The translations under genes and the position numbers were made by a program. The notes under the pieces are model-generated. The model worked only from the letters and a program-made list of their open reading frames with translations, searched no databases and was not told the DNA's origin. From the IMG/VR virus record IMGVR_UViG_3300042564_004221, positions 35,790 to 99,789 of that record: 64,000 bases of DNA; one strand, written 5' to 3'. Numbering within the stretch: the first letter of the stretch is position 1; every line of letters begins with the position of its first letter. The DNA is from a virus. This document shows positions 42,233-62,558 of this stretch, piece after piece.

Positions 42233-43096
42233 TTACTTATATTCTTTTTTTATTCCAGATGCAGTAGAATAAGTCTTAACTAGATTATCTGGTTTATCTT
42301 TAAAATGTTTACTCATTACTTCTACATTTCTAATATCATCATCTGAAAATCCAATACTAGGTTGCTCTGGTATAAAATTATTTGAAATTTCATTTTTAAT
42401 AAATGCTCTCTTATTAATAATTCCTGACATAGCCTTAATATAAGAAACAAATTCTTCCATTGCTTTAACTTTTAATTCTTCAGGATTCGCAGCACTTCCT
42501 TGTCCAAAAATAACTGGATGATACTTATTAAGTTCTAAGTATGATTTAATTAGTTCGTCATCACTCATATCTTCCTCACCGACAAACGACCTATACTTTT
42601 TAAGATTTTTAATTAGTTCGTCTTTATCTATCCCATTATATCCACTAATAATGTAATTGTAAACGGCTTGTTTTAAAGTTTCGGGATTATGACCTCTTGC
42701 AGTTATAATTGAAAAGATTGAACCATTATTAATTGCTTCTCTGAAATCTGCAAATGCAGGACCTTCTTTTGCTCTCATAGCATCAATTAAAAAATCTTTA
42801 TCTCCACCTGTTCTAAAGTTTCTAAACGGGTCTTCAGCATAACCTACAATTGTTTCTCCTTGATATTTAAAAGGTTGTTTACCTAAATCGTGTCTGTATT
42901 TTGAAAAATCATCGGTACTCATACCCATTTCTTCTCCATCTTCAGTTTTAATCATAATCTTGGTTGGCATGTGAACAATGTTATCATCCCAATCAAATGC
43001 ATAGTATTTCATATCTGGAGTTCCGTCTCCTTTAAATCCTTCGTTAAGTTGTCTTTTCATACTTTGGCTATTAGGGGGTACTTTATGTACCCCCAT
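42233..43096 (-). CDS. HAD-superfamily phosphatase-like protein
   Basis: A 287-aa protein. HAD motif I is YYAFDWDDNIVHMPTK (DxD nucleophile and acid). Motif II is FSIITARGH (Thr). Motif IV is SIGFSDDDIRNVEV. A central ~80-residue insert forms a cap. All catalytic elements appear present, so phosphohydrolase or phosphotransferase activity on an unknown substrate is likely. It lies between sheath and tube genes, 9 nt after the sheath stop. T4 has no HAD gene here. The substrate cannot be read from the sequence. Confidence 0.75.
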   Translation of the reverse strand: MGVHKVPPNSQSMKRQLNEGFKGDGTPDMKYYAFDWDDNIVHMPTKIMIKTEDGEEMGMSTDDFSKYRHDLGKQPFKYQGETIVGYAEDPFRNFRTGGDKDFLIDAMRAKEGPAFADFREAINNGSIFSIITARGHNPETLKQAVYNYIISGYNGIDKDELIKNLKKYRSFVGEEDMSDDELIKSYLELNKYHPVIFGQGSAANPEELKVKAMEEFVSYIKAMSGIINKRAFIKNEISNNFIPEQPSIGFSDDDIRNVEVMSKHFKDKPDNLVKTYSTASGIKKEYK

Positions 43097-47997: not shown

Positions 47998-48423
47998 TTA
48001 TCTATCTACTTTTGTCCATGTTTTAACATAAACTGAAACATCTAATGGAACTCCGTATCTTGTTATATCAACATTAAATACGTCTCTTAAGTACATTATA
48101 ATATTACGTCTAATAATATTTTCATTATCTTTGGGTATTTGATTGAAATAAAATACCAATTCAATATTATCTATTGAAAAATTTTCCATACCATAATGGA
48201 CGGAACCATCTTTATTTACCTCAATCTTATGAAGGTCATTTTTATAAGTTGATTCAAAAAAATTAACTATTGATGGTAATAATTTTTCAATCTTTTTCTT
48301 ATTAGATTTAATTTCTTCAATTATATCTTCTGTAGAATCTTCTTCTTTCCCTTTTTGTTTTTTTTCCTGTAAAACTTTACGAATTAAATCTCTCATATTA
48401 TAATCCTCTAAATTCGTTTTCAC
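47998..48423 (-). CDS. Hypothetical neck-region protein
   Basis: A 141-aa protein. The N-terminal ~60 residues are highly charged and helical (KEKKQKGKEEDSTEDIIEEI). The C-terminal ~80 residues are alpha/beta (NIELVFYFNQIPKDNEN, then IRRNIIMYLRDVFNVDI). The C-terminal part resembles the 102-aa product at 48912-49220 in strand-helix-strand layout, so the two may be paralogues. It overlaps the gp14-like gene by 26 nt. Confidence 0.6.
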   Translation of the reverse strand: MKTNLEDYNMRDLIRKVLQEKKQKGKEEDSTEDIIEEIKSNKKKIEKLLPSIVNFFESTYKNDLHKIEVNKDGSVHYGMENFSIDNIELVFYFNQIPKDNENIIRRNIIMYLRDVFNVDITRYGVPLDVSVYVKTWTKVDR

Positions 48424-49276: not shown

Positions 49277-51028
49277 ATGGAGATAAGTTTAGAGTCAAGA
49301 GCAATGATAATTCTTGAAACTTACGAGGGTGGTAATAACCATATTTTGGAGTTAAAACGTAAATCACAGATTAACAAAAAATTCTACCCAACAAGAAGTC
49401 AATCAGAATATATTATATCGTTCCACGATAAGCAACCAAAGGTTGCAAGAAAGTGGGTAATCCTTGATGCCTACTTCGCTCAGAAATTAGCTGACGATAA
49501 ATTATACACCGAAATACCCGATAAGATTTGGGTTGAAAAACTTTTGGCGGATAAAGAAAAGGCTTACCATATTTGGGGTAAAGTTTTTGACACAGAAGAA
49601 TTACACGATTTTTGGTTACCAAAAGCGGCAATCATTAAAGACAACTCAGTCAAAGATGTTGTAATTGATTATTCGAAATATTCTAATCGTCCCCCACTTG
49701 AACATCAAAAAGAAGCAATCCAAAAATTAGTAGAAAACAAAAAGTTCATCTTGGCAGATGATATGGGATTGGGTAAAACCACATCTACGATTATTGCAGC
49801 ATTAGAGACAGGAGCTAAAAAAGTTTTAATCATTTGTCCTGCAACTTTAAAGATTAATTGGAAACGTGAGATTGAAAACTATTCGGACAAACCAATCTAC
49901 ATTGCTGAAGGTAAAAATTTTAACACCGATGCTGATTTTGTCATTACAAACTACGATATCATTAAAAACTTCCACGACCCTAAAAAGAAAGATGATTCAC
50001 AAATTCTTTTATCTAAATTTGATTTAGTTATTGTTGATGAAGCACACTATATTAAGAACGCTACAGCTCAAAGAACAAAACTAATCAACGACATTGTTAA
50101 GAATATTGATAGGATTTGGTTGTTAACTGGTACACCAATGACATCAAGACCAATAGATTATTTTAACTTGTTAAGTATTATTGATTCTCCCGTCGCCCGT
50201 AATTGGATGGCTTACGCAATTAGATATTGTCAAGGGTATCAATTTAATGTTGGTGGAAGAAAAATTTGGAATGTCACAGGAGCGTCAAACTTAGAAGAAT
50301 TGAGAGACCGAACTTTAGGTTTAACATTAAGAAGATTAAAAGAAAATGTCCTTGATTTACCTGACAAGATAATCACACCCGTTTACTTAAGATTAAAGTC
50401 AAAAGAGTATGAAGAAGTTATGGGTGAGTACTACGATTGGTATGACAAAAACCCTGAAGAGTCAAAATCGTTAACAGTCCAATTTTCAAAATTAACTAAA
50501 GTTAGACAAATAATTGCCGATGAAAAAATTACTCAAACAATTGAACTTGCCGAAAACATATTAGAACAAGATAAGAAAGTTATTATTTTTTGTAATTTTA
50601 CCGATTCATTAAATAAGATTGCCGAACATTTTGGAAAAGCGGCGGTTAAGCTAAATGGAGCGATGTCAAAACCTGAAAAACAATATTCTGTTGACCAATT
50701 CCAAGAGAACCCAAAGATTAAAGTTTTTGTTGGAAACATTAAAGCAGCTGGTGTCGGGATTACATTAACGGCAGCAGAAGCGGTTATTATGAACGACTTA
50801 TCATTTTTACCTTCGGACCATGCACAGTCAGAAGATAGGGCATATCGTTACGGTCAAAAAAATAATGTTTTGGTTTATTATCCAATATTTGAAAACACAA
50901 TTGAAGGTATTATCTACGACATCCTAAACAACAAAAAACAAGTTATTGCAACAGTGATGGGAGACAACTTAAACCCCGCAGATGCCGCAGAAGAAATTCT
51001 ACAAAGAATTAATAAGTTGAGACATTAA
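49277..51028 (+). CDS. SNF2-family (SMARCAL1-like) DNA helicase/translocase
   Basis: A 583-aa protein. An N-terminal ~130-residue accessory domain is followed by a complete SNF2 motor: Walker A ADDMGLGKTTS (residues 160-170), DEAH box LVIVDEAHYIKN (about 250), motif III LLTGTPMTSRP, motif V GVGITLTAAEAVIMND and motif VI SEDRAYRYGQ (about 518). By analogy with T4 UvsW it could remodel forks and recombination intermediates. It starts the plus-strand run with SOD-fusion and gp13-like genes. Confidence 0.85.
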   Translation: MEISLESRAMIILETYEGGNNHILELKRKSQINKKFYPTRSQSEYIISFHDKQPKVARKWVILDAYFAQKLADDKLYTEIPDKIWVEKLLADKEKAYHIWGKVFDTEELHDFWLPKAAIIKDNSVKDVVIDYSKYSNRPPLEHQKEAIQKLVENKKFILADDMGLGKTTSTIIAALETGAKKVLIICPATLKINWKREIENYSDKPIYIAEGKNFNTDADFVITNYDIIKNFHDPKKKDDSQILLSKFDLVIVDEAHYIKNATAQRTKLINDIVKNIDRIWLLTGTPMTSRPIDYFNLLSIIDSPVARNWMAYAIRYCQGYQFNVGGRKIWNVTGASNLEELRDRTLGLTLRRLKENVLDLPDKIITPVYLRLKSKEYEEVMGEYYDWYDKNPEESKSLTVQFSKLTKVRQIIADEKITQTIELAENILEQDKKVIIFCNFTDSLNKIAEHFGKAAVKLNGAMSKPEKQYSVDQFQENPKIKVFVGNIKAAGVGITLTAAEAVIMNDLSFLPSDHAQSEDRAYRYGQKNNVLVYYPIFENTIEGIIYDILNNKKQVIATVMGDNLNPADAAEEILQRINKLRH

Positions 51029-51036
51029 TCAACAAC

Positions 51037-51063
51037 GGATTATTTATATACAACTGATAATCC
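51037..51063 (+). promoter_or_regulatory. Late promoter core inside a 7-bp inverted repeat before SOD-fusion gene
   Basis: TATTTATA (51041-51048) lies within an inverted repeat, GGATTAT...ATAATCC, that ends 6 nt before ATG 51070. The repeat may be an operator or leader hairpin controlling this gene. Confidence 0.5.
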
Positions 51064-51069
51064 AGAATA

Positions 51070-52608
51070 ATGAAAAAAACACAAGAAAAAATTCAACAAC
51101 TTGAAAAACAAATTCTCACAGAACAAGCGAATCAAGAGAAAGAGTTGTTGATTACAGAAATGAAAAGAATTGGAATAGAGAAATTACCTTATTCCTACGC
51201 AGCCCTCAAACAATTTATTAATGCAGAGACAATGGACATCCATTATAATATGCATTATAAAGGTTATGTTAAAAAACTAAATGACGCTTTAGCAAAGAAA
51301 AAATACGGGGATTTAGATTTAGAAAAAATAATTAAAACCATTGGTCGTTTTGATAAAACAATAAGAAACAACGCGGGTGGAGCGTTTAATCACGCATTGT
51401 TTTGGAATATGTTAACACCAACACCAAAAAAATTGGAGGGTGACCTTTACAAGAAGATTACAAAACAATGGGGAACTTTCTCAGGGTTTAAAAAAGAATT
51501 TGAAAAGATTGCAAAAGACAGATTTGGTTCAGGTTGGGTATGGTTAGTTTTAACTGCAAAAAATACACTTAAAATTATGTCAACTCCAAACCAAGATAAT
51601 CCGTTGATGAATGTTATTCAAGGCGGTGGATTTCCGTTATTAGGTTTGGACTTATGGGAACATGCTTATTATTTGAAGTATCGAAATAAAAGAGACGAAT
51701 ACATTAAAAACTTTTGGAAAGTTGTTAATTGGGATTTTGTTACTAAAATGTATGAAATGAAAACTGAAACAAAATTAAATGAATCGGTTAATCTACAGAA
51801 TATTATCACCGAATCCACACACGTTAGATTTTGTGATGCTCAAGAAGTGAAAGCATATAAGGACTTAATTAATGATTCAAAAACAAAAAAAATATATCAA
51901 GAGGGTATTACCAAGGTCTTAAGAAAAGTTTTTAATCAATTTTGGGTTGAGGGTAATTCAAAAGAAATGTCAGGTTTCTATGGTGTGGAAACAAGAGAAG
52001 GTAGGTCTGTATTAAATAATCTTAATACAAACTTTAATACATTTTGTCTATTAGTTAGGGCGGTTAATAAAGAAATTATGAGAATTAATAGACCCGAAAA
52101 AATCTTTAAATTTTATGATAAAGAAAAAAGAACGGCTAAAGAAGTTAATAGATTTATAACTGCATTAGATTTTTTCAGTAAAGAAATTTTTACAAAAAGG
52201 AATGACGATTTTATTAACATCATTAAAGTACTTAAGAAATTATGGGATAGAGGTCAAAAATCTGAAGATGATGTTTATGTTAAAATTGAAGAATACTTTA
52301 AAGGAAATGCCAAAGTAACTAAGATTGGTGGTCACGGACAAAAAGAAGACGCATTAAAGGGTATAGATTTGATTGTTAATTTGGGGGGTATTCTACATAC
52401 ATCTCAAGTTAAACCATTCTCAAGTTTTGTAAAAACAGAAGAAATTATTGAAATGTTGGATACAGGAAACGTTAAACACTATAGTGTTGATTGGTTAATA
52501 TTCATCAACCCAAAGACAAATAATGTTATGATTTTTGAAAACAAACCTATTAGTGAAAAAAACCAATACGTTTTTAAACTTGAATCGTTATTATACGAAA
52601 TAAAATAA
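51070..52608 (+). CDS. Mn-type superoxide dismutase fused to PD-(D/E)XK-like domain
   Basis: A 512-aa protein. Residues 1-35 are a charged helix. Residues about 36-228 are a full Fe/Mn SOD with all four metal ligands: H58 (MDIHYNMHYKGY), H108 (NNAGGAFNHALFW), D194 and H198 (GLDLWEHAYYLKY), plus gateway Y66 and the Mn-type Gln175 (TPNQDNPLM). Residues about 240-512 are a second domain; GIDLIV (D433), HTSQVKP (Q446, K448) and an upstream VKIEEYF helix fit a PD-(D/E)XK-like core, by pattern only. SOD dismutates superoxide; the partner may bind or cut DNA. It sits between the SNF2 helicase and gp13-like genes. I recall no fusion of this kind. Confidence 0.85.
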   Translation: MKKTQEKIQQLEKQILTEQANQEKELLITEMKRIGIEKLPYSYAALKQFINAETMDIHYNMHYKGYVKKLNDALAKKKYGDLDLEKIIKTIGRFDKTIRNNAGGAFNHALFWNMLTPTPKKLEGDLYKKITKQWGTFSGFKKEFEKIAKDRFGSGWVWLVLTAKNTLKIMSTPNQDNPLMNVIQGGGFPLLGLDLWEHAYYLKYRNKRDEYIKNFWKVVNWDFVTKMYEMKTETKLNESVNLQNIITESTHVRFCDAQEVKAYKDLINDSKTKKIYQEGITKVLRKVFNQFWVEGNSKEMSGFYGVETREGRSVLNNLNTNFNTFCLLVRAVNKEIMRINRPEKIFKFYDKEKRTAKEVNRFITALDFFSKEIFTKRNDDFINIIKVLKKLWDRGQKSEDDVYVKIEEYFKGNAKVTKIGGHGQKEDALKGIDLIVNLGGILHTSQVKPFSSFVKTEEIIEMLDTGNVKHYSVDWLIFINPKTNNVMIFENKPISEKNQYVFKLESLLYEIK

Positions 52609-52626: not shown

Positions 52627-53751
52627 ATGCCAGTTATTCCAGAACCTGAAAGAAGTAAAATTTATACAAGGATTAAACACCTGTTAGGTGCTCCTTTAAG
52701 AAGTGTTGAAATTGAAGATGAAATGATGGATTCTTTGATGGAACTCTCTATTCAAGATTATGAACAATATGTTTTAAATTGGTTGATTGATAGTCAATGG
52801 GTTAACTTAGTTAACTTAAATATGACTGAAAAATCTGTTGCCAATGCGTTAATTACAAGAACAATGGATTTTGAGCAACAATTTGCATACTCATATTCTA
52901 AAATTGTTGGACTTCAAGCTCAAGGTCCTTGGGTGTTAAAAAAAGATTATATCATTCTTGAACAAAACAAACAAAACTATGAAATCCCTGCAGGGCGTGA
53001 CATCAATGAGGTGTTATGGTTTAGTAATCAACCTTTTACCGCATTTGGTATAGGCGGATTCGGTGGTATGGGTGGTGGAGCAGGTTTAGGGGCAAGTGAA
53101 GCAGGTTTCGCCCAAATGGGTAATCAAGGTTCTTATTTTATGATGTCAGGTTTTGACTATCTAATAAGAATGCAAGAAGCAAACATTTTAAATAGAATTC
53201 TTGGTGGTTCCTTAACTTATAGAATAACTGCATTACCTGATGGTAAAAAAGATTTACAACTTTACAATGCACCTGGTAGTCGTTTTAGTTGGAGTAATTA
53301 TAATTCATATGTTGGTAAAGCGGTTTGGTATTGGTATTACGAAACAACTCCTGATAGTAGGGCAGACTGTTTAAAAAATAATCCTGATGTTATTAAATTA
53401 CCATCGGATGTTCCGTTAGAAGAACTTACTTGGTCGGATTTAAATGTACCAGGACAACAATGGGTAAGAAGATGGTTCACAGCGTATGTAAAAGAAACAT
53501 TAGCAAGAGTAAGAGGTAAGTATAGTGGTAATTTAAAGACACCAGACTCTGAGCTTACAATGGACTATACAAGTTTATTAACTGAAGCTAAAGATGAAAA
53601 GACAAAATTAATGGAAGAACTTACAGGTGCTGAAGGTTGGTTAACAAGATTAAGACCTGAAAAAGTTATGGAAAGAGAAGCATTACTTGCAGAGAATTTG
53701 AACAAACAAATGAAGTTCAGAGCAATGCCTCGTCAAATATACGTAATATAA
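52627..53751 (+). CDS. Neck/head-completion protein, T4 gp13-like (tentative)
   Basis: A 374-aa protein. The pattern fits gp13-type neck proteins of large T4-like phages: VLWFSNQPFTAF, a Gly-rich patch (FGGMGGGAGLGASEAGF), YLIRMQEANILNRILGGSLT, DLQLYNAPGSRFSW, WVRRWFTAYVKETLARVRG-KY, and an acidic helix EEL near the end. It would form the ring between portal and gp14. It is on the plus strand, away from the gp14/15-like genes. Confidence 0.55.
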   Translation: MPVIPEPERSKIYTRIKHLLGAPLRSVEIEDEMMDSLMELSIQDYEQYVLNWLIDSQWVNLVNLNMTEKSVANALITRTMDFEQQFAYSYSKIVGLQAQGPWVLKKDYIILEQNKQNYEIPAGRDINEVLWFSNQPFTAFGIGGFGGMGGGAGLGASEAGFAQMGNQGSYFMMSGFDYLIRMQEANILNRILGGSLTYRITALPDGKKDLQLYNAPGSRFSWSNYNSYVGKAVWYWYYETTPDSRADCLKNNPDVIKLPSDVPLEELTWSDLNVPGQQWVRRWFTAYVKETLARVRGKYSGNLKTPDSELTMDYTSLLTEAKDEKTKLMEELTGAEGWLTRLRPEKVMEREALLAENLNKQMKFRAMPRQIYVI

Positions 53752-57331: not shown

Positions 57332-57484
57332 ATGAAACCAAGAAAAAAAGAAGAAGATAAAAAAATTAAATTTGCGATTAGTTTAGACCCTAAATTATTT
57401 AAACGAATGGAAGATGATATTACTAATAAATCAGGGCTTATTGAAAAATTACTTAGAGAACACTATGGAAAAAAAGATTTGTAG
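57332..57484 (+). CDS. Small ribbon-helix-helix-like DNA-binding protein
   Basis: A 50-aa protein, MKPRKKEEDKKIKFAISLDP then KLFKRMEDDITNKSGLIEKL. The basic head, strand (KFAISLD) and two helices fit an RHH repressor. Its 3' end overlaps the HNH gene by 20 nt in another frame, so the two are translated as a pair. It may regulate the HNH gene or the divergent 125-aa gene. Confidence 0.7.
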   Translation: MKPRKKEEDKKIKFAISLDPKLFKRMEDDITNKSGLIEKLLREHYGKKDL

Positions 57485-58010
57485 TAAATGTAAGATTGAA
57501 AAAGATGTTTGTGAGTTTAATACCCGAAAAAATAGAAAAGGTATTATAATTTTAAGAGGATATTGTAAAAAATGCCATACAATTATGTCGGTTAATTTTA
57601 GTTTAAAAAACCCTAAAAAAACCAAACAATATAGAGATACTTGGTACAAGAATAACTCTAAAATTTTAGTAGAAAAAAATAAAAAAAGGAGAAATTCTGA
57701 TTTATTATATAAATTAAGAATTGGAATTAGAACAAGATTAAAAATGACATTAAAGAATAATTCTTTCAAGGGTAAAACTATTGAAATATTAGGTATGGAT
57801 ATTAATTCATTTAAGATTTATATTGAATCTAAATTTTTAAATGGAATGTCTTGGGATAATTATGGATTAAATGGATGGCATATAGACCATATAATTCCAT
57901 TGTGTTCCGCAAAAACTGAAGAAGAATTTTATAAACTTTGCCATTATACTAATCTTCAACCACTATGGGCTAAAGATAATTGGAAAAAAAGTAATAAAAT
58001 ATTGAATTAA
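57465..58010 (+). CDS. HNH endonuclease with N-terminal zinc-ribbon
   Basis: A 181-aa protein. The N-terminal Cys pairs (KICSKCKIEKDV, GYCKKCHT) form a probable zinc ribbon. The C-terminal HNH core reads GWHIDHIIPLCSAKTEEEFY then LCHYTNLQPLWAKDNWKKSN, with catalytic HIDH and N residues present. I chose ATG 57465; an upstream in-frame start would run through the RHH gene. Free-standing HNH genes of this type are often homing endonucleases in large phages. The very low GC and location near the polymerase gene fit a mobile insertion. Confidence 0.85.
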   Translation: MEKKICSKCKIEKDVCEFNTRKNRKGIIILRGYCKKCHTIMSVNFSLKNPKKTKQYRDTWYKNNSKILVEKNKKRRNSDLLYKLRIGIRTRLKMTLKNNSFKGKTIEILGMDINSFKIYIESKFLNGMSWDNYGLNGWHIDHIIPLCSAKTEEEFYKLCHYTNLQPLWAKDNWKKSNKILN

Positions 58011-59683
58011 CTTTCTTTACGTAATTCGGCAGAATAAAACTCAAAACGGTCATGTTCTGTTGGGGTTAACAACAAAAGTCCTGAATTAATGTTTCCTTTA
58101 ACAGTTTCTTGATAACAATACGACATAAGAGTTTGTTCAAAGGGATGTGCCCACTTAGTCTCTAAATAACATTTATAATTTCCGTTTTTAGTTAAAATAA
58201 TTGGCCAATTACATAAATAAATTTCACCATCAATATACGATAATCCTTGGTGTGTTTTTATGGATTTGAATTTGGTTCTTGGAGCATTTGGGTCTAAACC
58301 TTGTACAGGTAATGATGGTTTTTCGGGAAATAACTCCCTTCTTTTGTCTTGAGGCAAGTTGTACCAACTCCACTGCGTACCATTATCACCATAAAATTCA
58401 GTATAATTTAACTTTAAAAAATCAAAATTTTCTTGTTTCATTATTGATAGTGTTTTTGAATATAAGTTAGGAACAAACCTATTAAAACCATTTTTACATA
58501 CTTCACCTTTTTTAGGGTAAAATGACATATCATCTTCAAACCAATAATAGAAATCTAAACCTGTCTCATCAAAATGTTCCGCAACAAATACTCTACCACC
58601 AACAATTCCAATATTATCTTTCTTAATATGTTCAAAACCATATTCTTCACAAAGTTCTTGATATCTTGGTGTTGTTGATAAATCAGTTGAATTATCTAAT
58701 AAAAACTTTTTTGGTTTAATAATAAAATCTTTATCGTATTCTAACATTGATTGTATTAGTGTTTCAAATTGATTTGGACTATTAAATGTAATAACATATA
58801 ATCCCACCTTATTAGTATCCAAATTATTAAGTATAACTTCTTTAGTACCTTCCGACTTAACAACTAGTTCATCATTCTTTAAATCCTCAAAAAACTTACC
58901 AAATAAACCATTTGACTCAATCTCAAAGTAGTTAATCAAATCTGAGTGGGTATAACACATAATACTAAAAATTGATTCTTCAGTACCCATATATCCACTT
59001 TCTAATGTTGTCTTTAGGAAATTATAATAAATTCCGTTGATATCACTTATTGTGTGTTTTGGTCCACCAAAGAATCCTCCTCTTGCAACTTTATCTACTT
59101 TAGCACCTGCAATTGAGTTCATTTTATTAATTTCAAATCCGTGTATTTCGGTATTTGCTTCGTATGGAAAACAAACAAACGAAAACTTTGAAATGTATTT
59201 TGGTAATTTTTCTAATACCTTATCATGAGTAAAATATCCAGGATGAACAGTATTAGTTAATCCCGCATCAATCCAAAACATCATCTCTGAATTGAATTGG
59301 TCCATAATTCTGGCATCATTTAGTAAAAACATTTTAGACATTACTAAAGGATTATACATATCCAATTTTGCTTGAGTTGATTCAGGTAACCATCCCGCAA
59401 GATTATACCATTCAGGATTATTTCTTATTTCTTGAATTTTATTATAAAAGTCATTATTTTTAAACCAGTCTTGACTACGAGCAATGAATTGAGTGTTTTC
59501 GCGACTTCTTCTTTCAAATACAAAAGATTCTAAATCGGAATCACCAAAAATAATCATTGGGTTCTCAACTTGTAATAGTTGTTCAAATTTATCTAAATAA
59601 TGTTGAAATGAACGAGACCAACCTTCAGTTAGTTTATCTCTTTTAATGTTCCAAAGTCCTGTGACTAATGTTATTTTACTCAT
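58007..59683 (-). CDS. Two-domain glycosyltransferase-like protein: HtrL/YibB-like plus GT-A
   Basis: A 558-aa protein. Residues 1 to about 290 follow the HtrL/YibB pattern (ITLVTGLWNIKRDK, EMMFWIDAGLTN with D139, ARGGFFGGPKH). Residues about 305-550 look like a GT-A glycosyltransferase: VGLYVITFNSPNQFETLI, then a DxD-type acidic motif, YYWFEDDMSFYPK (about 383). A fusion of two sugar-transfer modules is inferred. It is last in a four-gene coupled operon (8-nt overlap with the previous gene). Acceptor unknown. Confidence 0.7.
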   Translation of the reverse strand: MSKITLVTGLWNIKRDKLTEGWSRSFQHYLDKFEQLLQVENPMIIFGDSDLESFVFERRSRENTQFIARSQDWFKNNDFYNKIQEIRNNPEWYNLAGWLPESTQAKLDMYNPLVMSKMFLLNDARIMDQFNSEMMFWIDAGLTNTVHPGYFTHDKVLEKLPKYISKFSFVCFPYEANTEIHGFEINKMNSIAGAKVDKVARGGFFGGPKHTISDINGIYYNFLKTTLESGYMGTEESIFSIMCYTHSDLINYFEIESNGLFGKFFEDLKNDELVVKSEGTKEVILNNLDTNKVGLYVITFNSPNQFETLIQSMLEYDKDFIIKPKKFLLDNSTDLSTTPRYQELCEEYGFEHIKKDNIGIVGGRVFVAEHFDETGLDFYYWFEDDMSFYPKKGEVCKNGFNRFVPNLYSKTLSIMKQENFDFLKLNYTEFYGDNGTQWSWYNLPQDKRRELFPEKPSLPVQGLDPNAPRTKFKSIKTHQGLSYIDGEIYLCNWPIILTKNGNYKCYLETKWAHPFEQTLMSYCYQETVKGNINSGLLLLTPTEHDRFEFYSAELRKES

Positions 59684-60566
59684 ATGTCCTATTTATTTCT
59701 TCTAAAATTTTATAAAAACTTTTATTTATTCTTGTATGTTCGGCCATATCTGTACCAGCAACCCTTTCATCTTCATGCCACCAAATATCAAAGTGTTTAC
59801 GCTCAAATAATTCTTTATGGTTATAATACATTAATGTCATAACACTTTCTTCATGAGGTAAACCCTTATCTTCGGTAATAACATTTTTGGTATAATCTTC
59901 AAACAAAGTTACAATTTCATCCCACTTATCTTTATGACCACCAAATAAACCACCAATAATATGAATACCTCTTTCCCAATTCGAATACCATTTAGGGTCT
60001 AATGTACCCGACCAATAATTTCTGTCATTTTCTTTACCGATAATTAAAAATTTATCACCTGTATCTTCTATTAAATTTGTTAGAAAATTATTATTAAATA
60101 ATGTTGATTCGTAATATCTTTGTTCGGGATGAGTACCAACTAAATACTTGTTAGGGATTAATCCACAATGTGATAATCCTGCATCAATCCAGTAATAATA
60201 ATCATAAGACTTATCTTCATTCCACCACCAATGAAATTTACTATATTGAACCTCAATACATCTATCGGATTTTTTAGTCGTTTCAATATCTTTATGTTGA
60301 TTTATTAAATCCTTAAATTTTGTATTGGAAATATCAAATACTTGAAGTTTTAATTTATCTGGTGACACATTATGTATTTCATAAAAAAACGTAATTAATG
60401 ATGGTAATTCCCTATCCGATGTATAACATAGAAAATCGGCATCTGTAATTTTTAAAAGGGATAATAAACTATACCTATAATGACCTCCTCTACCGACTCT
60501 ACCACCAAATTCGGTACCGTTCAAATCACTATAAATTGACGTAATAAATTTAACTTTAGTTGTCAT
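59676..60566 (-). CDS. HtrL/YibB-like glycosyltransferase-type protein
   Basis: A 296-aa protein with VKFITSIYSDLNGTEFG, YYYWIDAGLSHCGLIPNK (D128) and HIIGGLFGGHKDKWDEI, the pattern shared with the N-domain of the next gene. HtrL/YibB proteins sit in surface-sugar gene clusters and are thought to be GT-A-like. It overlaps its neighbours by 11 and 8 nt. The two HtrL-like copies probably arose by duplication. Confidence 0.7.
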   Translation of the reverse strand: MTTKVKFITSIYSDLNGTEFGGRVGRGGHYRYSLLSLLKITDADFLCYTSDRELPSLITFFYEIHNVSPDKLKLQVFDISNTKFKDLINQHKDIETTKKSDRCIEVQYSKFHWWWNEDKSYDYYYWIDAGLSHCGLIPNKYLVGTHPEQRYYESTLFNNNFLTNLIEDTGDKFLIIGKENDRNYWSGTLDPKWYSNWERGIHIIGGLFGGHKDKWDEIVTLFEDYTKNVITEDKGLPHEESVMTLMYYNHKELFERKHFDIWWHEDERVAGTDMAEHTRINKSFYKILEEINRTYE

Positions 60567-61290
60567 AATTAAAATTTTTGTGTTGATTGTTAATTTTTAA
60601 TTCATTGGTTAGTGTTCCGTTTAAATATCCTGAAGGTATTTTACAAGGACTATATAAATTCCAATTATATGTTTGAGTATAAAAATTATTATAATCTCCG
60701 TGTGACACATCAGACCAATTACTCATTTGAGGTGCTATTGGTAGTAACGGCACATAACTTTGTTTAATTGATATGACAAATTGTGAAATGTATTCATCAA
60801 TTGCATAATAACCCAAATTCTCAGGTTTTTCTATTTCTAATACATTATCATAAATTGATTTATGATAAATAATCATATTTGTTGCATAAATACCTCTATG
60901 GTGTTCCTCTTTTGGTGGGAGATTTGTTATATCTAAAAATAATGGTTGTGTTTCACTACGATTAACAGGTCTGTTTAGTGTTGGTGCCAAATTTATAATT
61001 CCAAACTCAAAATCACCCGATTCGGTTTCAATCTTATTTATTAAATCTTTGGAATAAGGTAAGAAGGTACAATCATCCTCAATAACCATAACCGATTCAT
61101 ATCCTCTCTCCTTTGCAATTTTTATAACCTCAACGTGAGATAAAGTACACCCCCCATGATTATTTAAATCAATTGCCTTAAATAATTCATATTCCCAACC
61201 AATATACTCCATTTCTTTTTTAATGTGTTCTAATCTATCAGGTCTCCTTTCAAGATTCACAACAAATTTTGGGATGTTTGTAATATTCAT
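60556..61290 (-). CDS. Glycosyltransferase family 25
   Basis: A 244-aa protein. GT25 signatures: FVVNLERRPDRLEHI (residues 9-23), GGCTLSHVEVIKIAKERGYE and the acidic motif VMVIEDDCTFLP (E71-D72-D73). GT25 enzymes add galactose or related sugars to lipopolysaccharide or to hydroxylysine in collagen. Its ATG overlaps the upstream stop (TAATG), so it is coupled to the GT60-like gene. The sugar and acceptor cannot be told from sequence. Confidence 0.85.
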   Translation of the reverse strand: MNITNIPKFVVNLERRPDRLEHIKKEMEYIGWEYELFKAIDLNNHGGCTLSHVEVIKIAKERGYESVMVIEDDCTFLPYSKDLINKIETESGDFEFGIINLAPTLNRPVNRSETQPLFLDITNLPPKEEHHRGIYATNMIIYHKSIYDNVLEIEKPENLGYYAIDEYISQFVISIKQSYVPLLPIAPQMSNWSDVSHGDYNNFYTQTYNWNLYSPCKIPSGYLNGTLTNELKINNQHKNFNYDN

Positions 61291-62558
61291 TAGCTAACCA
61301 TATTGTGACTTAATTGTCCTGTTATTCTATCACACCATCCTTTTGATTCTGAGAACGGCCAAACAACCCAATGAGTTGGCATTTCATCTGTTTGAAATTC
61401 TCTCCATACCTTGCAATAGTTATCAGGGTCTCTCATAAATCCAGCAATCTCATTTTTGTCTGCATCTTTACGGAATAAAGTTTTATCATCTTTACCGTGG
61501 AAGGCAACAACCCAAAACTCATAATCTGTTTCAGGAACCTGTGAATATCCAATATCAATACAATGTTTGAACATCATACAGAAACTATCTTTCCATTCTT
61601 TTTCAGTTTCAAAGTTATATGGATTTGGTGGGTAGTTCTTATCTAAAGTATATTTGTCAATTGCTCGTTTTTCAAAAAGAATACCCGAATACTTTTCATA
61701 ATCGGTTAAAGTTCTAACAGGACCAAAACCATAAGGACCATCGTGTCCTTCTTGTTTTTCACCATCCATACCAAATAACTTTCTATTTGTTAGGTGAGAG
61801 TGATTATTCTTTTGTCCCCAATCTTTATCAATATCCCATTGTTTTGTTCGACCTTTACGAGTATATTCGTGATAAAATATTGGAATATGTGGATGGAATA
61901 GGTCATAACCCCAAGTGTAAGCCCTAACCGCAATCGAAATCTCTTCTCCGTGAAAATAATATTCATTATTATGTTGAACTTCAGTTGAGAACTGTCCTAA
62001 TGTAAAACAGAAGTGAGCGGAATAAAATCTTGCTGTTACAGGTTTTTTAAGGTCCTTCCATCCTGGTATTGTTTCAGGTAAGAAGAACACCGCACCTTCA
62101 GGAATGAATCTATCAAAGACCATTCTCCAAGCGTCAGGAGCTCTTCCTGCTGGGTCATTATCAGGGTCAAAAGAAGGTACGTAACCTGTTAATAGAGGTT
62201 TTTTATATCCGTCTTTCTGTAACCCTTTTATCATTTTAATAAGAATAACATCCCAATCCTTAATAGTTCTCATATGACTATCAATTTGAAGGGTATATTC
62301 TTCACCTTTATAAAGTTGTTGAGTTAAGTTTCTTGCCCAACAAACACCTTTAGAATCCGTATGTGGAATATCTAAAATTCTAAATCTTTTATCATCTCTC
62401 CATTCATCAACATTATCAAAACCGTCTTCTGGATTAAATTGTCTTGCAATTGCAAATACAAGATTTTTTGGATATTTAGCATTCTCCAACATATCTTTAA
62501 TTGTTGGAACTAATTGTGGGTCACAAAATGATGCAATTTGGATAAATATTTTACTCAT
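61290..62558 (-). CDS. GlcNAc-transferase-like protein (PF11397 / GT60-like)
   Basis: A 422-aa protein. IFIQIASFCDPQLVPTIKDM (residues 4-23), GVCWARNLTQQLYKGEEY, the metal-binding QIDSHMR (D93, H95) and YFHGEEISIAVRAYTWGYDL are the hallmarks of the PF11397 family. Known GT60 members transfer alpha-GlcNAc to hydroxyproline of Skp1 or to Thr of trypanosome mucins. The first gene of the glycosyltransferase operon, 85 nt from the Pro/Thr-tailed gene. I infer that it could modify Thr-rich tails of phage proteins; modification of DNA or host glycans is the alternative. Confidence 0.75.
   Translation of the reverse strand: MSKIFIQIASFCDPQLVPTIKDMLENAKYPKNLVFAIARQFNPEDGFDNVDEWRDDKRFRILDIPHTDSKGVCWARNLTQQLYKGEEYTLQIDSHMRTIKDWDVILIKMIKGLQKDGYKKPLLTGYVPSFDPDNDPAGRAPDAWRMVFDRFIPEGAVFFLPETIPGWKDLKKPVTARFYSAHFCFTLGQFSTEVQHNNEYYFHGEEISIAVRAYTWGYDLFHPHIPIFYHEYTRKGRTKQWDIDKDWGQKNNHSHLTNRKLFGMDGEKQEGHDGPYGFGPVRTLTDYEKYSGILFEKRAIDKYTLDKNYPPNPYNFETEKEWKDSFCMMFKHCIDIGYSQVPETDYEFWVVAFHGKDDKTLFRKDADKNEIAGFMRDPDNYCKVWREFQTDEMPTHWVVWPFSESKGWCDRITGQLSHNMVS

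Follow-up and report, generated by a model that had tools for sequence, protein, structure and literature searches.

A viral superoxide dismutase fused to a predicted PD-(D/E)XK-type nuclease: a candidate head-packaged precursor with putative prohead-protease sites

The T4 prohead protease gp21 is described as cleaving after L/I-X-E (PMC9026906), and it is reported to trim the Alt protein at both ends, at ITE-6 and LTE-619 (PMC5694885). Staphylococcal nuclease has been packed in T4 heads via a targeting sequence, and according to PMC3012670 it cuts only on addition of calcium. In PBCV-1, a superoxide dismutase (SOD) is described as a late gene product that is packaged in the virion (PMC7019647), while SOD genes of freshwater phages have been published and read as protection against reactive oxygen species (ROS; PMC6802176). 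In the present work, we examine a viral gene that joins an SOD to a second, nuclease-type domain. The first-pass annotation of this DNA knew of no described system with this architecture, and our literature search likewise turned up no account of the fusion, of the putative cut sites or of the exchanged nuclease; the word "superoxide" is absent from the accessible text of the jumbo-phage papers PMC7824862 and PMC6892783.

The gene lies in a stretch of 64,000 nucleotides, called the window in the following. The open reading frame (ORF) and both of its neighbours were found as first annotated, and the relevant features are (a downward arrow marks a putative cut):

49277-51028, + strand: SNF2-type helicase gene, upstream of the fusion gene
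51037-51063, + strand: inverted repeat GGATTAT/ATAATCC enclosing TTATTTATA (51040-51048), a late-promoter-like motif
51070-52608, + strand: putative SOD-nuclease precursor gene, 512 aa, ATG start
51070-51159, + strand: residues 1-30, N-terminal extension, candidate propeptide or capsid-targeting segment
51148-51162, + strand: residues 27-31, LITE↓M, candidate prohead-protease site 1
51178-51756, + strand: residues 37-229, Mn/Fe superoxide dismutase domain (Pfam, solved SODs, alignment)
51760-51819, + strand: residues 231-250, linker with candidate sites 2 (LNE238↓S) and 3 (ITE248↓S), and cassette border
51820-52209, + strand: residues 251-380, helical region of the C-terminal half (confident helices in the model)
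52222-52605, + strand: residues 385-512, predicted PD-(D/E)XK-type core with E399, D427, D433, Q446 and K448
52627-53751, + strand: head-tail adaptor (Ad2) or neck-like gene, downstream of the fusion gene (phrog_211, E 1.4e-10)

When viral contigs were scanned with the protein, 371 of 372 pattern-matched stretches were confirmed to hold a relative, although some of these may be SOD-only. These many homologous loci rule out a chance ORF or an assembly chimera. The best 80 of the 371 are all full-length fusions, on contigs of up to 321 kb, and a mixed C-terminal alignment, used as the query of another scan, gave at least 472 confirmed stretches among the 600 matches listed. The same fusion, for which a search of metagenomic phages had been proposed, is thus readily found, and we aligned 144 distinct fusion proteins of 497-517 aa from public viral contigs; we left out fusion ORFs cut off by a contig end and those shorter than 480 or longer than 530 aa, for instance L197 with 478 aa. 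A regular-expression census of the fetched loci (best 80 per scan) counted 405 SOD ORFs that match the nuclease expression as well and three full-length SOD ORFs that do not (L314, L428 and L430; 509-511 aa), while no ORF there matched the nuclease expression alone.

Relatives were also sought in other collections. Among INPHARED records, 29 match the SOD part, none of them over 80% of the query, and the C-terminal half retrieves just three, with E values of 2-5. In genome_contigs, 73 stretches fit two peptide patterns that reach close relatives only, and none was confirmed. BFVD, on the other hand, holds a 501-aa protein, A0A6J5L953, named "superoxide dismutase [uncultured Caudovirales phage]". 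Its structure model agrees with ours of the C-terminal half at an E value of 1.7e-13, and the protein is probably a deposited member of the family. A 1113-aa marine phage protein in the same database, A0A8D9CCA0, has the C-terminal domain in common.

It can also be mentioned that an ORF that looks by eye like an HNH endonuclease (window 57414-58010, + strand) ends in LWAKDNWKKSN, and that in four relatives (L003, L151, L260 and L292) the DNA directly preceding the fusion gene resembles, again by eye, this ending. The neighbourhood of the fusion gene may therefore be a place where HNH-like ORFs insert.

The SOD half is recognized by Pfam as Sod_Fe_N on residues 37-115 (E 1.5e-21) and Sod_Fe_C on residues 124-226 (E 9.7e-40), both above cut-off. 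The closest solved structures are MnSODs, with that of Sphingobacterium sp. T2 (6gsc, E 6e-56) as the top PDB match. The matches to solved SODs start only at residue 32-38, and the preceding extension is thus foreign to ordinary SODs. The residues singled out in the first-pass annotation, H58, H108, D194, H198, Y66 and Q175, are the four metal ligands and the active-site Tyr and Gln. All six are present in 144/144 distinct aligned homologues, and a loss of metal ligands in relatives, for which we checked, was seen in none of them. In the full-length structure model, the SOD part folded poorly, with most of residues 23-120 and 170-249 at a pLDDT below 50, and the model is therefore no evidence on the SOD structure; Foldseek nevertheless placed SODs at the top of its matches. 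Judged by the retained residues, the SOD half is apparently intact.

For the C-terminal half (residues 231-512), sequence searches in Pfam, PHROGs, PADLOC and the PDB returned nothing credible. An AlphaFold2 model of residues 251-512, based on 30 aligned rows, has a mean pLDDT of 84 and confident helices. With the full-length model, rows 1-29 of the VIA-align output all align to residues 385-512 (best Z 6.4, rmsd 3.0-3.6 over 93-105 residues), and they comprise I-Ssp6803I, Hjc and other Holliday resolvases, NhoI/Eco15I, SPARDA, PvuII, RecU/PrfA, DpnI and HhaI, all of which we take to belong to one superfamily, the restriction-endonuclease-like or PD-(D/E)XK proteins. The domain alone gives SPARDA first (Z 6.5, rmsd 4.1, 106 aligned), followed by Hjc, NhoI and I-Ssp6803I. 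It is important to note that these scores are middling, and that Z values below 8 may mirror just a common arrangement. Foldseek with the C-terminal half puts I-Ssp6803I first (E 0.019, probability 0.99). RNase III, which appears there from rank 3 (E 0.029, probability at most 0.41) and has a Z of 2.4, was given no weight. Residues 251-380 are barely covered by structural matches.

What speaks most for the assignment of the core is that the fold matches agree with invariant D..QxK residues. E399, G423, D427, G431, D433, Q446 and K448 are found in 144/144 aligned homologues, none of which lacks D433, Q446 or K448, and structure prediction gave nuclease-type folds as the nearest ones. The evidence is thus strongly suggestive of a PD-(D/E)XK fold with a D..QxK active site, as the first-pass annotation had proposed. 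It had also remarked on a Gln in place of the usual Glu. This need not be a defect; it fits an active enzyme, since the SPARDA nuclease DREN is described as employing D41, Q60 and K62, of which D and Q bind the magnesium (PMC12205087). In many members, the C-terminal half is down to 24-43% identity to P0001, while their SODs are 81-92% identical, and the invariance of both catalytic sets despite this divergence argues for two working enzymes.

Clustering at 45% identity separates three C-terminal types, with 68, 66 and 10 of the 144 proteins, and 42 of 10,296 pairs combine SODs that are at least 95% alike with C-terminal halves below 45%; in the extreme pair, the SODs are identical and the nuclease halves 27% alike. 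In the pairs L321/L310 (likewise L320/L304), L348/L014 and L383/L248, the gene starts of the last two loci being inferred from their matches, the DNA similarity ends 724-732 bases into the gene, at codon ~241-244 and between E238 and E248, and it returns at, or just past, the stop codon. The exchange pairs cover two type combinations, third with second and, as deduced from identities, second with first. Read from these alignments, the whole nuclease is swapped at once, and the swapped piece begins within the putative cut linker. Interchangeable cargo should behave in this way, whereas an ordinary assembly enzyme should not. The exchange had gone unnoticed in the first-pass annotation.

The linker itself stands out in the alignment. 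Within residues 231-250, K235, L236, E238 and E248 are nearly constant amid varying neighbours. Only ten Glu residues are conserved at 95% or more across the 144-member family, and four of them, E197, E30, E238 and E248, have L, I or M two positions before. E197 sits in the SOD core, E30 lies just ahead of the SOD, and E238 and E248 lie between SOD and nuclease. The P2 residue is free at the last three, with six kinds at E30, eight at E238 and nine at E248. The residue after E238 is S in 131, T in 12 and N in one of the 144 proteins; after E248 it is S in 59, G in 56, A in 17, F in eight, D in two and others in two, which makes S, G or A in 132/144. At LITE↓M, where E30 is kept in at least 95% and M31 in 144/144, the sequence adjoins an otherwise conserved stretch, and this is the weakest of the three candidate sites.

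The neighbouring genes served as a control, which weakens the significance of (L/I)-x-E sites at the candidate propeptide and domain borders. L, I or M stands two before the Glu in 10/28 conserved Glu of the helicase and in 7/21 of the neck protein, and six or more P2 kinds are seen in 0/10 and 1/7 of these, respectively, both control proteins being better conserved overall than the fusion protein. The (L/I/M)xE pattern alone is weak evidence because it is common among the conserved Glu of these genes, and only the junction position together with the free P2 appears to set the sites of the SOD gene apart. The two halves had originally been described as tethered. The fusion stands, while its permanence is doubtful: the tether is perhaps only transient, because the linker retains two prohead-protease-type sites.

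The gene belongs to large phages related to T4, and components for such processing are encoded by its relatives. An S77 prohead protease was found in 10/11 relatives searched, nine above cut-off, and a gp23-type capsid family in 10/11; the relative without both is a 94-kb fragment. By-eye inspection of the window's own 99.8-kb fragment found no capsid or protease gene. In the capsid protein of the relatives, (F/H)LINE↓A aligns with T4 FLTE↓A in 5/5, and a scaffold-like protein bearing three to nine (L/I)xE(S/A/G) sites is present in 4/5 stretches.

We now turn to the region upstream of the gene. The first-pass annotation had seen a promoter motif inside an inverted repeat, and this arrangement is real, with the arms GGATTAT at 51037-51043 and ATAATCC at 51057-51063. 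Among 104 distinct 70-nt upstream stretches, TTATTTAT is kept in 101; the arms are perfect and co-varying in 64 (GGATTAT/ATAATCC in 52, GAGTTAT/ATAACTC in 11 and GGGTTAT/ATAACCC in one) and imperfect in 37. In the 321-kb relative, WTATTTAT starts 8-32 nt upstream of 52/330 ORFs, compared to about 1.6 expected, and the genes bearing it include those for the prohead protease, the neck and the SOD. For sheath- and tube-like genes, named by eye, it lies farther upstream, at -41 and -42. We read this type of motif as the late promoter of these phages.

In the same 321-kb relative, 21/390 ORFs start with a double LxE tag, for example KIVRLTESDLxRLVKKVLKEQ, where interior windows or shuffles give an expectation of two to three. 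These are candidate capsid-targeting tags. The association between N-terminal tag and late motif in this relative is not significant (Fisher p 0.12).

A few further observations concern such tags and the surroundings of the gene. At about 183-232 kb of the 321-kb relative (G003, L278-L281) there is a cluster of small genes, many with a late-type motif, in which the tag quoted above, MNLNENISRVKELMG and MKYLITESQYNFLLEQ recur at the N-terminus, marking candidate head-packaged proteins. A 455-aa ORF of this relative (L278:7481-8848, - strand), which is not among the 21 tagged ORFs, has the tag-like start MRDLIKKLLREE and a GETAEKNF..GVD..QVK stretch with a weak similarity to the nuclease core (E 0.002 over the searched ORFs); it is possibly a second tagged nuclease. 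In the window, a small protein at 47998-48423 (- strand) has an internal start, MRDLIRKVLQEKK, similar to that tag-like start. A 287-aa protein at 42233-43096 (- strand) is HAD-like by eye, with no Pfam match at E 0.5, and has RQLNE↓G near its start as a possible processing site. Four successive ORFs that by eye resemble glycosyltransferases lie at 58007-62558 (- strand) among phage tail-type genes.

In summary, the sequences themselves show two catalytic sets and a conserved pattern of putative cut sites, a late-type motif, an exchange of cassettes and, in relatives, genes for the protease and a gp23-type capsid protein. In the explanation that we favor, with a probability of roughly 55%, the protein is a late head-packaged precursor that is split by the prohead protease into SOD and nuclease. 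The precursor would be expressed late and packed into the prohead, where the phage's T4 gp21-type protease would cut at (L/I)-x-E, once behind E30 and again behind E238, E248 or both. The mature SOD, of Mn type, and the D..QxK PD-(D/E)XK nuclease would then be separate proteins within the head, and both would be delivered along with the DNA. Superoxide near packaged or entering DNA would be removed by the SOD; the targets of the exchanged nuclease would be the DNA of certain hosts or rivals, or else the ends of the phage's own DNA. Packaging, cleavage, enzyme activities and targets are all steps that we infer. The virion head is suggested as the site because the late-type motif, the adjacency to the neck gene and the cut sites point there. 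For the earlier proposals of protecting replicating DNA or sensing redox stress, we found no specific support.

A nuclease packed alongside the phage DNA needs control. Neither half is implausible in a head, since the PBCV-1 SOD and the T4-packed staphylococcal nuclease are precedents. A more detailed version of the head-packaged precursor, in which a constant SOD would serve as the carrier targeted to the head, and the virion-borne nuclease as a weapon that comes in three kinds and is swapped by recombination at the cut linker, is tentative, and we would rate its chances as somewhat below even.

An alternative is a cytoplasmic bifunctional enzyme that is never packaged, in which the SOD lowers superoxide in the infected cell and the tethered nuclease processes DNA in the course of recombination, repair or the breakdown of host DNA. 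This reading is in line with the intact catalytic sites of both halves, with the place of the gene after a helicase gene, and with freshwater phages, whose SOD genes are listed among ROS-defence genes with a proposed role in host protection (PMC6802176). As it leaves the conserved (L/I)xE in a variable linker, the late-type motif and the place before the neck gene unexplained, we consider this option unlikely.

The place before the neck gene suggests another option, namely that the nuclease half is a head-completion nuclease like T4 gp4, trimming portal DNA before tail joining, with the SOD as a passenger or a protector of DNA ends. T4 gp4 is described as an REase-type DNase needed for packaging and morphogenesis (PMC7824862). 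A scan with the neck gene, independent of SOD and nuclease, gave at least 598 confirmed loci among the 600 matches listed, and in 80/80 of the best of these the fusion gene is immediately upstream. Moreover, no convincing separate gp4 was found in 12 records, where the one phrog_218 hit was weak and interrupted by an internal stop (E 0.0096) and PF08722 gave 0/12; this absence says little, given that the records are mostly fragments and that neither search picked up the control genomes. The C-terminal half, on the other hand, matches neither phrog_218 nor the TnsA-like PF08722, and an essential assembly enzyme is not expected to be a cassette exchanged among near relatives, which makes a gp4-like role distinctly unlikely. 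In Flavobacterium phage immuto, the gene before the head-completion/neck gene is by eye not nuclease-like. Finally, a head or neck structural protein using inactive enzyme folds as scaffolding only would agree with the adjoining neck gene and the late-type motif, but is highly improbable given that both catalytic sets are invariant in proteins whose C-terminal halves are otherwise at 24-43% identity.

If the head-packaged precursor is correct, this would, within the literature searched, be the first virion-borne phage SOD and the first two-enzyme head precursor of such a kind. Phages would then arm their heads with redox protection and DNA-cutting enzymes via one cleavable precursor, and the SOD genes of freshwater phages would have a new reason. 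The exchanged nuclease cassettes hint at host- or rival-specific targets, and the tags on other genes of the related phage could list further head-packaged proteins. The conserved sites render the cleavage directly testable.

Compared to the bacterial Mn/Fe SODs, the fusion protein has the whole domain and all the named metal and active-site residues in common, and adds an N-terminal extension of ~30 residues and a nuclease-type C-terminal domain of 260 residues. The deposited A0A6J5L953 fits in name and length, but it stands under the SOD name only, with its second domain undescribed there. The SOD of PBCV-1 differs in being a Cu/Zn enzyme of an algal virus, without a nuclease, and its fold is unrelated to that of the Mn/Fe enzymes. 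SPARDA DREN and I-Ssp6803I have the PD-(D/E)XK fold predicted here, and DREN also shares the D, Q and K; there is no sequence-level match to either, their partners are different, and both are described as tetrameric. T4 gp4 is likewise a REase-type nuclease, tied to head completion, but it belongs to a TnsA-like family with no sequence match to the C-terminal half. Closest in kind are the head-packaged processed proteins of T4, Alt and IPI-III, with which the present system has in common the (L/I)xE at propeptide borders, a co-encoded S77 protease and gp23-type capsid, and a variable cargo. In our case the putative cargo would be an SOD and a nuclease, with the candidate sites placed between two enzymes.
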